A stretch of 64,000 nt of DNA from Faecalicatena absiana (GTDB lineage: Bacteria; Bacillota; Bacilli; Lactobacillales; Lactobacillaceae): contig JAEDAG010000001.1 in the NCBI GenBank assembly GCA_017309015.1, positions 113,499 through 177,498 on the forward strand. The letters run 5' to 3'. Every line of letters starts with the position of its first letter. Within the stretch, counting starts at the first letter, position 1. Below the pieces are notes generated by a model. That model was not told the origin of the DNA. It saw nothing but the letters and a program-made list of their open reading frames with translations, and did no database searches. Shown here piece after piece: positions 10,876 to 64,000 of this stretch. The translations under genes and the position numbers were made by a program.

Positions 10876-10937
10876 AGTTGCTTGGTTCCCGCCAGCGGGA
10901 AAAATATCGGTATATCAAGGCTTACAGCCCTGCTTAG

Positions 10938-11296
10938 TGGAGATGAGGGGAATTGAACCCCTGTCCAAACGCATTTTGTCACCAATCTCTACGATCATAG
11001 TTATATTACTTGAACTTCACCGCTCCCAAACGCCATATAACAGGGCAAACTAGCAACGGCTAGCCTGATGATCTCTTCTTGACTATTCAGACGTGATAGC
11101 CAAGCGTATCCCGTAAAGTTGATACCGCAAGGTCGCCACGGGCCGGCAACCTATTGGCAGCTGGGCTGAACTAAGCAGCTACAGCGTATGAGTTTTCGTT
11201 TGCAGTTAATTTAAACTGTTTAACGTTTTTACGTAGACGTAACCTACGAATCGCAATCGGCGCAAATCTACGCCTGTCGAATCCCAAAACATCCCC
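10938..11296 (-). ncRNA. ssrA: tmRNA (ssrA)
   Basis: The 5' end GGGGATG pairs with the 3' end CATCTCC to form the tRNA-like acceptor stem, and the T arm GGACAGGGGTTCAATTCCCC is present. The tag frame at 11171-11203 reads ANENSYAVAA followed by TAG, matching the ...YAVAA tags of lactobacilli that direct degradation. The conserved GGGATTCGACAGGCGT follows the 5' end. It rescues stalled ribosomes with SmpB. The mature 3' CCA is not encoded (CTA follows). Length about 359. Confidence 0.97.
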
Positions 11297-60510: not shown

Positions 60511-60654
60511 GCTTTTTGAACGACTTTGCTATTTCCTAAAAAGCCTTTACAAAAAGTTAAAATTACAAAAAACAACTTTTAAAATTCAGGAACTTTCCAA
60601 ATTTAGCCCTTCCCAATTTAAAATTGTTTGTTATAATAGATTAGGTAATCGGAT

Positions 60655-60726
60655 GGACCCTTAGTGTAATGGATCGCACGCAAGATTCCGGTTCTTGAAA
60701 TCTGGGTTCGACTCCCAGGGGGTCCA
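60655..60726 (+). tRNA. tRNA-Arg (anticodon CCG)
   Basis: 72 bases forming a full cloverleaf: acceptor GGACCCT with GGGGGTCC, anticodon stem CAAGA/TCTTG with loop TTCCGGT (anticodon CCG, reads CGG) and T arm with GGTTCGACTC. CCA is not encoded. An extended -10 (TGTTATAAT, 60629-60637) lies upstream. It stands alone rather than in a cluster. Confidence 0.95.
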
Positions 60727-60734
60727 TATGGACT

Positions 60735-60851: not shown

Positions 60852-61616
60852 TTATTCAAAGAACTTGGCCAGATCATTCATAGTCAGCTGCCTTTTGGCT
60901 GCTCCTTGATAGTCACGAATGATTTGCCCATTTTCCAGAACCAGCAGCCGGTTGCCGTACTTTAAGGCATCTTCCATGTGGTGGGTGATCATCACGGCCG
61001 TGATCTGCTCTTGGCGGATGTGCCGGTCAGTGGCTTCCAGCAGGTTGCGGCTCGACCTTGGATCCAAGGCCGCCGTGTGTTCGTCAAGCAAGAGCAGATC
61101 GGGCCGCTTGTAGGTCGCCATCACGAAGCTCAAAGCCTGGCGCTGGCCGCCAGAAAGCTGGTCAACGGCCACGTCCAGCTTGTCTTCCAAGCCATTGTTG
61201 ATCGTCGCCAGCGCCTTGGCAAACGCCGCCTTTTCGGCTTTAAGCCTGCGCAGCCGCAATCCTCGCCGCTCTCCTCTTTTGGCGGCCAGCAGCAGGTTTT
61301 CCGCGACCGTCATGCGCGGCGCCGTGCCTAATTTGGTATCCTGGAAGACTCTGGCAATGAAGCGGCTTCTCTTTTCTTCGCTTTCTTTGGTAATGTCGAT
61401 TCCCTTATAGGAAATCGTTCCTTGAGAGGGGTGAATTTCACCGGCCAAAACGTTCAACAGGGTGCTCTTCCCGGCCCCGTTGCCCCCAAGCAGGCAGATA
61501 AAGTCCCCTTCCTTGATCTCCAGGTTGATCCCCTTTAAGATCTTGGCCTCATCCGCCGTACCTGGATTGACGGTCGTCTCAATGTTTTTCAGTTTGATTA
61601 AGGCTGCGTTAGTCAT
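60852..61616 (-). CDS. trpZ: ABC transporter ATPase, TrpXYZ-like (probable tryptophan uptake)
   Basis: 254 residues: Walker A GGNGAGKST, signature LSGGQRQA, Walker B LLLLDEH and an H-loop. Last gene of a three-gene unit whose binding protein belongs to the TrpX family. It overlaps the permease by 8 bases. The tryptophan assignment comes from the leader with tandem Trp codons and from the family, not from this protein alone. Confidence 0.85.
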   Translation of the reverse strand: MTNAALIKLKNIETTVNPGTADEAKILKGINLEIKEGDFICLLGGNGAGKSTLLNVLAGEIHPSQGTISYKGIDITKESEEKRSRFIARVFQDTKLGTAPRMTVAENLLLAAKRGERRGLRLRRLKAEKAAFAKALATINNGLEDKLDVAVDQLSGGQRQALSFVMATYKRPDLLLLDEHTAALDPRSSRNLLEATDRHIRQEQITAVMITHHMEDALKYGNRLLVLENGQIIRDYQGAAKRQLTMNDLAKFFE

Positions 61617-62505
61617 TCTTTATGCCTCCCAACAAGGTCTTTCTAAGGTGCAGGTATTTTTCAGCTTGCGGCAGCATCATGCAGATCGATAAAACGACCG
61701 CGGAAATCAGGTTCAGATTGTCTGATGACAAGCCGATCTGCAGAACCGCGAGCAGGATCAGACGGTAGATGATGGAGCCCAGGGTCACGGCAAACAAGCG
61801 GCTGCCCAGGTCCAGGTTTCTGAAAATGACCTCGCTGATGATGATCGAAGCCAAGGCAATGACGATCGTCCCAATCCCCATATTGACGTCAGCATAACCA
61901 TTGCTTTGCGCTACGACCGCCCCGCACAAGCCGACCAGGCCGTTTGACAGCATCAAGCCAACGACGGTCATCTGATTGACGTGGATTCCCAAGGACTTGG
62001 CCATTTGCGGGTTGTCGCCCGTGGCAATGAAGGATTGGCCAAAGTCAGTAAAGAGAAACCAGATCAGCAAGCCGGTCACGGTCAGCATGATCAAGATTCC
62101 GGCAAAAACCGCATCAAAGTACTGGGGCAAGGACTTCAAGAAGGCATTGCTGAAGATCGTGCTTTTGCTCAAAAGGGACACGTTGGACTTGCCCATGACC
62201 ATCAAATCCACTGAATAGATCCCAGTCATGGTCAAAATTCCCGCCAAAAGGCTGGGAATCTTGCCCTTCGTAATCAGCAAGGCCGTGACCAAGCCGGCTA
62301 AGCCGCCAGCGATAAAGGCAGCCAAAGTCGCCAGCCACGGGCTGACCCCCTTGACGATCAAGCTGACAGCTACGGAAGCGCCTAATGGGAAGGTTCCTTC
62401 TACCGTCATATCAGTCGTATTCATAATTCGGAAGCTCAGGTACAAGCCTAGGCCCAACAGGCCCCATAAGAAGCCCTGGCCAATGGCTGAGACAATCAAA
62501 TTCAT
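61609..62505 (-). CDS. trpY: ABC transporter permease, TrpXYZ-like
   Basis: 298 residues with 8 or more membrane helices, of the family PF02653-type permeases (ITKGKIPSLLAGILTMTGIYSVDL, GDNPQMAKSLGI). Overlaps both neighbours (8 and 4 bases). Confidence 0.85.
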   Translation of the reverse strand: MNLIVSAIGQGFLWGLLGLGLYLSFRIMNTTDMTVEGTFPLGASVAVSLIVKGVSPWLATLAAFIAGGLAGLVTALLITKGKIPSLLAGILTMTGIYSVDLMVMGKSNVSLLSKSTIFSNAFLKSLPQYFDAVFAGILIMLTVTGLLIWFLFTDFGQSFIATGDNPQMAKSLGIHVNQMTVVGLMLSNGLVGLCGAVVAQSNGYADVNMGIGTIVIALASIIISEVIFRNLDLGSRLFAVTLGSIIYRLILLAVLQIGLSSDNLNLISAVVLSICMMLPQAEKYLHLRKTLLGGIKND

Positions 62506-63494
62506 TTGTAAATCGTTCCTTTCTGCTTAGCTTCTTGGTAAAAATACTTTGGCACCGTCAACCCCAGCTTCTTGGCCTCCTTCAGGTTCAAGACCGGCTT
62601 CCCGTGCTTGAGATAGCGAACCGGCATGTTGGCCGGCTGCTTGCCCTTGAGGATCTGAACGACCATCTTGGCCCCCTCAACCCCCAGCTTGTACTGGTCG
62701 ACACTGTAGGTGGCAATCCCGCCTTCCTTGACCATCGTGTCCACGGCCGGGAAAACCGGCTTCTTGGCCGCGTTGGCGTTCTTGACCAGAGTCTGCATGG
62801 CCCCGGCAACCGTGTTGTCGGTTGGCACGATCACCGCGTCTACCTGCGTCAGCATCTGCTGCGAAACCTGGTTTAAGTCATTAGAGTTGGAGATTGCGTA
62901 GCCCTTCAGGCTGAGCTTCAGCTTCTTGCATTCGCTTACGATCTGCCGATAGCCAGCCACGGCTGAGGCGTCGCTTGACGTGTAGATCACGCCCAAAGTC
63001 TTCAGCTTGGGCATGAAGCGCTGGATCAGCTCCAGCTGCTCCTGAATTGGCGCTCGGTCCGAGATCCCGGTAATATTGCCACCTGGGTGCTGATTGTTCT
63101 TGACCAGGTTGGCGGATTTGGGATCCGTCACCGCCCCCAGGACGATCGGCGTCTTCTTGGTCGCGTTGGCCAGGGCTTGTGATGACGGCGTCGTGATCCC
63201 GAAAAGCACCTTTGAATCGCCGTTGACCAGCTTTTCAGCCATGGTTTTCAGATTGCTCTGGTCGTTGTTGGCATTTTGGTAGTCAAGCTTGATTTCCTTG
63301 CCATCCCGGTAGCCTTCTCTTGCCAATTCATCCTTAAAGCCTTTATAGATGGCATCAAGGGCAGCGTGGCGCATCAGGGTCAAGACCCCAATCTTGATCT
63401 GGCTCTGCTTGACTCGCGCCGGCTTGGACTCAAGGCCAAAGGCCACGGCCAGGAAAACGAACAGAATTGCGAAGGCTGTTCCCACTTTCTTCAT
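62502..63494 (-). CDS. trpX: ABC transporter substrate-binding protein, TrpX-like
   Basis: 330 residues of the ABC_sub_bind family (PF04392): IKIGVLTLMRHAALDAIYKGF, FGITTPSSQAL, VGAVTDP-type strand (LGAVTDPKSANLV) and VPTDNTVAGAM. There is an N-terminal hydrophobic signal (about 5-20) without a lipobox cysteine, so it is likely kept on the membrane by an uncleaved anchor. AAAGGA precedes the start. It heads the operon behind a long leader with Trp codons. Confidence 0.85.
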   Translation of the reverse strand: MKKVGTAFAILFVFLAVAFGLESKPARVKQSQIKIGVLTLMRHAALDAIYKGFKDELAREGYRDGKEIKLDYQNANNDQSNLKTMAEKLVNGDSKVLFGITTPSSQALANATKKTPIVLGAVTDPKSANLVKNNQHPGGNITGISDRAPIQEQLELIQRFMPKLKTLGVIYTSSDASAVAGYRQIVSECKKLKLSLKGYAISNSNDLNQVSQQMLTQVDAVIVPTDNTVAGAMQTLVKNANAAKKPVFPAVDTMVKEGGIATYSVDQYKLGVEGAKMVVQILKGKQPANMPVRYLKHGKPVLNLKEAKKLGLTVPKYFYQEAKQKGTIYK

Positions 63495-63541
63495 TATTTA
63501 ATCCTTTCTTCTTGACACTTGAACAAGAACCCGCAAGAAGC

Positions 63542-63575
63542 AAAAACAGGAATCCCTGAGTCGGAATTCCTGTTT
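63542..63575 (-). terminator. Second leader terminator, before trpX
   Basis: On the minus strand AACAGGAAT pairs with ATTCCTGTT, followed by five T. It lies 48 bases before the trpX start, downstream of the first terminator. Confidence 0.7.
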
Positions 63576-63582
63576 CTTGGTC

Positions 63583-63626
63583 AAACAAAAATCCGGACGC
63601 GTTCTTATTCATAACGCTATCCGGAT
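63583..63626 (-). terminator. First leader terminator (attenuator) of the TrpXYZ-like operon
   Basis: On the minus strand ATCCGGA-TA-GCGTT pairs with AACGC-G-TCCGGAT, followed by TTTTTG. Its 5' arm (63615-63623) can instead pair over 9 bases (one G-U) with 63655-63663, which would be the antiterminator. Confidence 0.8.
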
Positions 63627-63652
63627 TCTTTAAGAACTTGTTCTTAAGCACG

Positions 63653-63723
63653 TTCAGATAGCGGTTCATGCAAAATGCCTGATTGAACCGCTGTCTAAAA
63701 TGCGAGTCAATCAGCTATCTGAA
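63653..63723 (-). promoter_or_regulatory. Alternative stems of a tryptophan attenuator
   Basis: Three mutually exclusive pairings are seen on the minus strand. TTCAGATAGC (63714-63723), which overlaps the end of the leader peptide, pairs over 10 bases with GCTATCTGAA (63653-63662); nested inside, CTGATTGA (63707-63714) pairs with TCAATCAG (63679-63686). Alternatively AGCGGTTCA (63684-63692) pairs with TGAACCGCT (63660-63668). And 63655-63663 can pair with the 5' arm of the terminator. A ribosome paused on the Trp codons would cover the first strand and shift the balance towards antitermination. The pairings are seen; the switch is inferred. Confidence 0.75.
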
Positions 63724-63762
63724 TTGCCACCAGGATTGAATCATGCTTAATTTAAAGTTCAT
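63715..63762 (-). CDS. Leader peptide MNFKLSMIQSWWQFR with tandem Trp codons
   Basis: A 15-codon frame with AGAGG 9 bases before the ATG, ending in TAG. Two adjacent TGG codons (63727-63732) lie just before the first arm of the attenuator stems. Size, position and tandem Trp codons are those of a trp leader peptide. Confidence 0.85.
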   Translation of the reverse strand: MNFKLSMIQSWWQFR

Positions 63763-63792
63763 TGTTGTTTACCTCTTTTAATATTTTCTTAA

Positions 63793-63821
63793 ATTGTACG
63801 AGAGCCAACTTGATCTGTCAA
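63793..63821 (-). promoter_or_regulatory. Promoter of the TrpXYZ-like operon
   Basis: Perfect -35 TTGACA (63816-63821), 17-base spacer, -10 TACAAT (63793-63798). The leader peptide begins about 25 bases after the expected start. Confidence 0.88.
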
Positions 63822-63831
63822 GCACCGATTT

Positions 63832-64000
63832 CTACCACTTGCCGGAAAGAATTTCCCCGCGCTGGGCCAACTGGGCGTAGAAGGTGCTGCCTGAGTAGGC
63901 CAGCCCTTCGATTTCCCGGTTGGTGACGTGCTTCCAGGTCTTTTGGTAGGTTCCGTCAGCCTTCACCTTGAAGATCATGTTGTTGAAGGCCACATAGAAG
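63832..64000 (-). CDS. C-terminal end of an unidentified protein (partial)
   Basis: The last 55 codons of a frame that enters from the right edge; it reads FYVAFNNMIFKVKADGTYQK and ends GEILSGKW. The aromatic, beta-rich style with short glycine turns suggests an extracellular or repeat protein, but no family can be named from this fragment. Its stop is only 11 bases before the -35 box of the next operon. Confidence 0.6.
   Translation of the reverse strand, partial: FYVAFNNMIFKVKADGTYQKTWKHVTNREIEGLAYSGSTFYAQLAQRGEILSGKW

Follow-up and report, generated by a model that had tools for sequence, protein, structure and literature searches.

A leader-peptide attenuator with tryptophan control codons as the probable switch of a trpXYZ transporter operon, and its candidate family in Lactobacillales

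How is the uptake of tryptophan adjusted in a lactobacillus whose trpX operon is preceded by a long, structured leader without a T-box? The question is raised by a 64,000-nucleotide stretch of genomic DNA (the window, whose positions are used for this locus throughout), which carries a three-gene transporter operon on its minus strand.

60852-61616 (minus): transporter ATPase, TrpZ-like by position (PF00005)
61609-62505 (minus): transporter permease, TrpY-like by position (PF02653)
62502-63494 (minus): trpX, tryptophan ABC transporter substrate-binding protein (NF041285, PF04392, 3lft)

The trpX product scores 460 bits against a cutoff of 390 for the NCBIfam TrpX equivalog NF041285, which bears out the TrpX transporter operon of a lactobacillus proposed in the initial annotation. 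The host need not be Lactobacillus delbrueckii, however, since the TrpX of this genome shares 72-74% identity with the closest relatives identified, including L. nasalidis and L. delbrueckii, in a comparison that may omit records very near the window sequence. No match to trpB was found in this genome (99.88% complete), from which we infer that the organism must import tryptophan. Immediately past the operon, the opposite strand carries a tRNA-Arg (CCG) (60654-60727, plus), and a tmRNA gene is found elsewhere in the window (10937-11296, minus).

The leader occupies positions 63821-63543 of the minus strand and is composed of the following elements.

63793-63821 (minus): promoter, with TTGACA at 63821-63816, a 17-nt spacer and TACAAT at 63798-63793
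63772-63776 (minus): Shine-Dalgarno sequence AGAGG of the leader ORF
63715-63762 (minus): leader ORF MNFKLSMIQSWWQFR-stop, 15 codons, ending in ...SWWQFR
63714-63723 (minus): 5' arm of helix c, TTCAGATAGC, at the ORF end, proposed anti-antiterminator
63653-63662 (minus): 3' arm of helix c, GCTATCTGAA, the antiterminator strand
63680-63713 (minus): stem a, TGATTGA (63713-63707) with TCAATCA (63686-63680), directly 3' of the ORF
63661-63691 (minus): stem b, GCGGTTCA (63691-63684) with TGAACCGC (63668-63661)
63615-63663 (minus): antiterminator helix d, CGCTATCTG (63663-63655) with CGGATAGCG (63623-63615) in the 5' arm of T1
63587-63630 (minus): first terminator T1, -20.1 kcal/mol (folding scan)
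63543-63576 (minus): second terminator T2, -19.8 kcal/mol, directly behind T1 (folding scan)
63560-63598 (minus): proposed relay helix r, 3' arm of T1 GTCCGGATT (63598-63590) with AATTCCGAC (63568-63560) in the 5' half of T2

Most of this layout had been anticipated in the initial annotation. The promoter holds, with 11 of 12 consensus matches against 0.5 sites of that grade expected in shuffles of the 601-base region, and transcription probably starts near 63786. The Shine-Dalgarno-preceded ORF of 15 codons with tandem Trp codons is present as well, but its start had to be corrected to 63762; its Trp codons are the TGGTGG at 63732-63727, of which the second occupies the position conserved in relatives. 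The further pairings that had been described could all be located, namely the 10-base pairing of the ORF end (helix c, 63723-63714 with 63662-63653), a competing pairing ahead of the terminator (found as stems a and b), a strong terminator (T1) and a 9-base alternative to it (helix d) that would break T1. The second terminator T2 is an element absent from that description. A simple terminator scan reports 0 terminators at the leader and misses both T1 and T2, the loop of T1 exceeding its limit; the 296-nt leader as a whole has a far lower folding energy than its shuffles (z -6.6), and none of the 200 equals it.

The leader sets a Shine-Dalgarno-preceded short ORF between a promoter and a terminator, places Trp control codons before TrpX, and joins the ORF end, the antiterminator and the terminator by mutually exclusive helices that are kept in relatives. 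It is very probably a leader-peptide transcription attenuator that senses the charging of tRNA-Trp through ribosome stalling and controls trpXYZ. Under this reading, we infer that the ORF is translated, that ribosomes stall in it and that the operon responds to tryptophan by read-through. With ample tryptophan, the ribosome would complete the short ORF and depart; the ORF would then pair with the antiterminator strand, through helix c and longer ORF pairings, and with this strand occupied T1 would form and transcription would end. When charged tRNA-Trp is scarce, the ribosome would stall on a Trp codon and cover the ORF end, so that the freed strand could pair with the 5' arm of T1 (helix d) and RNA polymerase would read on. 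Less certainly, the 3' arm of T1, left single-stranded once helix d has formed, might pair with the 5' half of T2 and disarm this second terminator as a relay.

The trpL leader of Escherichia coli is the classical case of ribosome-mediated transcription attenuation. The window leader is like it in the Trp codons near the end of a short ORF, in the exclusive formation of antiterminator or terminator and, by analogy, in the read-through expected at low tryptophan. Unlike in trpL, the anti-antiterminator is the ORF end, which pairs across ~50 nt with the antiterminator strand, two terminators follow each other, and the controlled operon serves uptake. Nor is there an Rfam match: neither a T-box, as the initial annotation had noted, nor any other family, the enterobacterial Trp leader included, is found at E<=1 in 62500-64000.

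Does the leader peptide persist in related genomes? TrpX-like matches were obtained in 104 of 120 genomes, own genome included, by a search that also catches paralogues. We read the upstream regions of 50 same-genus loci with E<=1e-72 (the window among them), of two loci named Limosilactobacillus and of two weaker same-genus matches, and set the remaining weaker TrpX-like matches aside as paralogues. An ATG ORF with a Shine-Dalgarno sequence and a Trp codon among its last six codons precedes the gene in 52 of these 54 regions, and the conservation check set beforehand therefore came out in favour of a Trp leader in 52 of 52 trpX leaders read. From the last Trp to the stop, the distance is four codons in 23 leaders, five in 19, six in eight, and three and one in a single leader each. 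The tandem itself, which had been expected to be conserved, is not: WW occurs in four of the 52 leaders and a single Trp codon in 47. Two weak TrpX-like matches (L110 and L111) display a Phe/Tyr leader in place of the Trp leader. None of four leader peptides tested against NCBIfam belongs to a family there. Two further TrpX-like proteins (L002 and L003) are encoded in tandem on another contig of this genome (G000:C18:63376-65488), and inspection by eye of the 500 upstream bases showed no leader of either class.

The pairings were evaluated by column counts in 32 non-redundant leaders against 500 shuffles. Standard pairs make up 88% for helix c, 85% for d, 87% for b and 93% for T1, each value being above all 500 shuffles, and changes such as GCCAG:CTGGC to GCCGG:CCGGC in helix c preserve the complementarity. 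The stem covariation proposed as a check in the initial annotation is thus borne out insofar as the pairings are kept above chance, but measures of two-sided change are weaker: shuffles reached the observed value in 70 of 500 rounds for c, 8 for d, 9 for b, 6 for T1 and 421 for stem a, and the extra pair types for d are no greater than in shuffles (469/500). A complementary view comes from swapping arms between leaders (29 genus and 62-68 order sequences, near-copies removed), in which the cognate arms pair better for helix c (z -4.2 in the genus set, -5.7 in the order set), d (-4.7 and -3.4), r, that is, the 3' arm of T1 with the 5' half of T2 (-7.4 and -6.5), and an additional helix c', which joins the leader ribosome-binding site and ORF start to the stretch before T1 (-9.3 and -3.4). 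The swap controls lie between -1.9 and +2.1 with two exceptions. One, in which the ribosome-binding site and the beginning of the ORF are set against the first 30 nt past the stop codon, is not clean (z -2.7 genus, -7.4 order) and is perhaps a further real pairing; the other, the T1 3' arm with the reversed T2 5' arm, is not clean in the order set (z -2.6). In the strictest version, a swap with the nearest relative, helix c is significant only in the order set (p 0.008), c' (p 0.004) and r (p 0.006) only in the genus set, and d in neither the genus nor the order set, while three control comparisons also fall at p 0.02-0.04. Swaps within the Phe/Tyr set gave nothing for c or d with just 6-7 usable sequences.

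In some relatives, exemplified by L025 and L030, the Shine-Dalgarno sequence and ORF start of the leader are complementary to the stretch following helix c; in L025, GAAGATTTACC pairs with GGTAAATCTTC. In this subgroup of Lactobacillus, such a pairing would shut the leader after translation.

The dependence of the switch on ribosome position was modelled by moving an assumed ribosome footprint codon by codon, with the 5' arm of T1 just made. For the window, placing the first or the second Trp codon in the A site gives an antiterminator probability of 0.98 or 0.97, and the codon that follows gives 0.74; over the final two codons and the stop the value is 0.00, as it is in free RNA. In the free window RNA, the drawn form of helix c has a probability of 0.01 because longer ORF pairings compete with it. 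The equilibrium fold of the full window leader gives 0.88-0.91 for T1 and 0.99 for T2 whatever is masked, and the switch is not seen there. Since T1 and T2 win once the full leader exists, the decision must be kinetic and fall during transcription. Together with the Trp leader kept in relatives and the pairings conserved above chance, the peak of the antiterminator at the Trp codons supports the leader-peptide attenuation that the initial annotation had read into this locus.

The same calculation is less uniform across relatives. With one ribosome, 68 order leaders have a mean antiterminator probability of 0.29 in free RNA, 0.43 at the last Trp and 0.24 at the stop, the Trp position exceeding the stop by 0.1 in 34 of 68 and falling below it in none. 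In 29 genus leaders, the means are 0.05 free, 0.12 at Trp and 0.04 at the stop; Trp is above the stop in five and below in one, it exceeds free RNA by 0.1 in four, and the best position lies ~7 codons earlier. In the genus set, the antiterminator is therefore not generally at its maximum with a single ribosome on Trp; there the c' helix over the leader start holds the antiterminator strand. With a second ribosome placed at the start codon, the probability is 0.70 at Trp against 0.31 at the stop in the order set (above in 61 of 68, below in none) and 0.70 against 0.45 in the genus set (above in 21 of 29, below in one); a ribosome at the start codon alone yields 0.48 and 0.59, respectively. As the genus set needs this second ribosome, two queued ribosomes may take part in the mechanism there.

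A second terminator, if constitutive, would keep the operon off. Of 157 Trp leaders, 132 have tandem terminators (46 among the 52 trpX loci and 86 among the 105 order leaders). In the window, the relay helix r, in which the 3' arm of T1 takes part together with its U tract, has a probability of 0.85 when the 5' arm of T1 is taken as engaged, and over 91 leaders the cognate relay pairing averages 0.59 (genus) and 0.53 (order) versus 0.47 and 0.44 for swapped arms. This modelling suggests a two-terminator relay.

To regard the locus as a singular case, as in the initial annotation, is too narrow, as the same device is widespread in Lactobacillales and is already catalogued under other names. Rfam family RF04312, the 'trpB motif' or SRC-39-1, is described as a 'strong riboswitch candidate' with >900 examples, for which the available sections give the ligand as unknown and leave a classic attenuator open (Narunsky et al. 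2024, PMC11109978). Its published description comprises two covarying hairpins, the second being a terminator, with an antiterminator in the right shoulder of P1 (PMC11109978); it has also been reported from Fusobacteria. RF04312 and the family RF02863 discussed below each occur in just over half of 295 sampled Lactobacillales genomes at E<=0.001 (159 and 157, respectively), with 52 and 71 genomes over the curated cutoff. Outside the order, RF04312 is found in four of 299 phylum genomes at E<=0.001, one of them of Lactobacillales; the three out-of-order matches (38-42 bits) have no Trp leader and were taken as chance. A weak match is also present in the Lactococcus lactis control genome.

To these RNAs belongs a leader peptide that was not met in the published descriptions consulted. 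We surveyed 110 leaders among the RF04312 matches listed, all of at least 42.5 bits, choosing ORFs by position and Shine-Dalgarno sequence only (ATG start, ending 0-35 nt before the motif). Such an ORF precedes the motif in 107 of 110 matches and contains Trp in 103, versus a mean of 5.3 ORFs, 1.1 with Trp, in 100 rounds of dinucleotide shuffling. Reading by eye reveals a Trp leader also at the three loci without an ORF by this rule (L143, L195 and L209), its start being unusual or its Shine-Dalgarno sequence weak. Three of the four matched leaders without Trp (L211, L223 and L230) carry FSYFR; the fourth, L204, has no such leader and a tRNA-like sequence behind it, and is probably a chance match. 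The published model begins just 3' of the leader stop codon, so that the ORF lies outside it. Downstream of the 110 matches are TrpX-like genes (100), trpB (5, at L130, L137, L141, L166 and L193), AroE (1), other ORFs (2) or no ORF (2); among three trpB loci checked in NCBIfam, L130 and L193 are over the cutoff and the truncated L166 is just under it.

The window leader resembles RF04312 in its place before TrpX-like transporter genes, RF04312 standing also before trpB, and, in our own positional reading, stem b is equivalent to P1, and T1 to the second hairpin; the hairpin with which the RF04312 model begins in relatives is thus represented here by stem b. It differs from RF04312, published as a riboswitch candidate with no leader ORF in the accessible description, in lying below threshold: no match at E<=1 was found at the leader and none there in the search of its own genome, whose best two matches are terminators elsewhere. 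By score the window is not an RF04312 member, and its kinship would rest on orthologous position, a shared peptide end, architecture and a weak match to a model of our own. This model, R1, was built from 20 genus-level leaders with the window left out, for which RNAalifold, unaided, chose stem c, stem b and T1. R1 matches in 134 of 201 Lactobacillaceae genomes at E<=0.001, and not in the host genome at that threshold; within the 64-kb window, its best match is the leader itself, albeit weak (20.1 bits, E 0.018), the next one scoring 14.0 bits.

The Phe/Tyr leaders of L110 and L111 match a second family, RF02863 or sRNA_2410, which we equate by its shared name with a putative small RNA of Enterococcus faecium seen as two transcripts on Northern blots in the part of the study at hand (PMC5593968). 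Among the RF02863 matches we read 70 loci, the 30 best and 40 chosen for spread, and all 70 have a leader ending in YFSYFR or variants. The L274 leader ends in NFFFSFFR and that of L299 in TYYSYYR, hence either Phe or Tyr may be missing. Ten of the 70 lack a Shine-Dalgarno sequence by pattern, and for two of these ten a GTG or TTG start was picked. Behind these leaders lie a TrpX-like paralogue at 52 loci, AroE at 14, DAHP synthase at two (both over an NCBIfam cutoff), and prephenate dehydratase (pheA, the best family, at 188 against a cutoff of 219) and a polar amino-acid binding protein at one each; the AroE calls were made by eye, and that of L265 has AroE as best NCBIfam match, truncated and under cutoffs. 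Two terminators were found in 8 of 64 Phe/Tyr leaders. The window leader is thus like sRNA_2410 as a sister attenuator before a sister transporter or aromatic pathway genes, and unlike it in that sRNA_2410 was published as a putative small RNA and its codons point to Phe/Tyr, not Trp. In G506, one leader of this class (L300) precedes a polar amino-acid binding protein from another family, whose nearest NCBIfam models are for cystine and Lys/Arg/Orn, under cutoff.

Both families may have been met before in Streptococcus agalactiae. The gbs1262 and gbs2033 5'UTRs lie upstream of paralogous ABC transporters, yield two RNA forms that share a start site in RNA-seq, a short, terminated one and a long one, are linked to trpB and aroFBC-tyrA, and were proposed in 2015 as riboswitches for aromatic amino acids (PMC4448216). 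From gene context, rather than by alignment, they appear to be the RF04312 and RF02863 classes; premature termination was seen there and read as that of riboswitches, the parts of the report at hand describing no leader peptide. In the open-licence PMC literature searched, none was met for RF04312 or RF02863.

The control codons follow the downstream gene. In a tree of 151 binding proteins (97 with Trp and 54 with Phe/Tyr leaders, two of fewer than 150 residues dropped, and L211 and L230, found via RF04312, labelled by their own leaders), leader type splits the proteins on one branch with support 100, which requires one change versus 44.5 for shuffled labels. The transporter split is one evolutionary event, and trpB, aroE, DAHP synthase and pheA are separate associations. 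A third codon set emerged from 50 R1 loci, namely the 30 best and 20 selected ones, for the most part second copies and weaker matches. A Trp leader precedes TrpX-like genes at 43 of the 50 and family-5 binding proteins at two, 45 loci in all. The other five, in three genomes of one genus, read NIRLRSR, with TGG CAA changed to CTG CGA in a near-identical scaffold, and precede a family-3 binding protein at four loci (one by Pfam, the others alike by eye) and a family-5 protein at one. Each of these genomes also has a Trp version before trpX, and one altered copy on the same contig, 5-8 kb off. Judging by the codons, the sensed amino acid would be Leu or Arg.

These observations bear on whether the RNA itself could bind tryptophan or another aromatic compound as a metabolite riboswitch. 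The covarying hairpins for which RF04312 was classed as a strong candidate (PMC11109978) and the reading of gbs1262/gbs2033 (PMC4448216) are what this explanation has on its side. An aptamer needs no ORF, however, and here a conserved, Shine-Dalgarno-preceded one abuts the published model and switches its codons between Trp, Phe/Tyr and Leu-Arg along with the downstream gene; the 2024 authors themselves kept a classic attenuator possible in the sections cited (PMC11109978). We consider a riboswitch improbable. Precedents for leader-peptide attenuators in Gram-positive bacteria, with other amino acids and other genes, include the His leader peptides before hisS/hisZ in Firmicutes (PMC2965389) and the uORF attenuator of ilvB-II in Corynebacterium (PMC10272879), which, according to PMC11109978, was first taken for a riboswitch. 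A leader-peptide attenuator remains our preferred reading of the window.

In arrest peptides of the TnaC type, a fixed motif with Trp precedes a tryptophan-degrading operon. A sensor of this kind, in which free tryptophan would stall the ribosome late in the ORF through the nascent peptide, would account for the conserved residues after Trp: Gln follows it directly (+1) in 68 of the 80 non-redundant order leaders, and FSYFR is found in the Phe/Tyr class. Likewise, Gln-Leu-Asn or Leu-Asn recurs 3-5 residues before the control codon in all three codon classes, with Leu codons that vary synonymously. From the control position onwards, the codons hardly vary even in their nucleotides, which makes it difficult to tell constraint on the RNA from constraint on the peptide in this part, and the 5' arm of helix c shares bases with the conserved stretch. 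Against such a sensor, the sensed residue changes with the downstream gene, these genes serve uptake or biosynthesis and not tryptophan degradation, and stalling at high tryptophan would turn uptake on, probably the wrong logic. We see little chance for this explanation. A T-box that itself reads uncharged tRNA-Trp, the device found at S. suis trpX, can practically be dismissed, as the five T-boxes (RF00230) before TrpX orthologues, all in one family of Lactobacillales, and the 22 T-box matches (RF00230, E<=0.001) of this genome are set against none at E<=1 at the window locus, none of the 22 near the trpX leader and, among 40 order-level trpX loci, 11 above the RF04312 gathering score, five with a T-box and none with both.

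As judged from sequence, the window leader is probably a member of a Lactobacillales family with exchanged control codons: Trp, Phe/Tyr and, in one genus, Leu-Arg. That one ancestral attenuator was reprogrammed several times by codon exchange and works with a two-stage relay, and that RF04312 and RF02863 are both this device, is a tentative proposal, for which we see somewhat less than an even chance. The leader-peptide reading would turn an orphan riboswitch candidate and an orphan small RNA into a mechanism testable by single codons. Leader-peptide attenuation would stand as a widespread alternative to the T-box, the trpX genes of Lactobacillales using one or the other. The same operon is controlled in S. 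suis by a T-box through transcription attenuation in response to tryptophan, according to the portion of the work cited (PMC9382623), which reads the tRNA directly, without ribosome and leader peptide. Leader codons would also predict transporter substrates, namely Trp for TrpX, Phe/Tyr for the sister clade and Leu or Arg for the third set, and the relay, if true, would add an arrangement that lets a single stalled ribosome release both terminators.

Some individual leaders deserve mention for what follows their terminators. In L026 and L027 (genomes G101 and G088), an extra ORF lies directly ahead of trpX, ~85 nt before it, behind the leader and its terminators; that of L027 is MRQWTSQRWQSK, with two Trp codons, and that of L026 starts alike and reads on further. 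This second Trp ORF is perhaps a second control step. At the best-scoring RF04312 match (L124, G429:C1:26859-26965), the next ORF is not trpX; by eye it resembles the reverse transcriptase of a group II intron, which would fit the insertion of an intron directly after the attenuator terminator.
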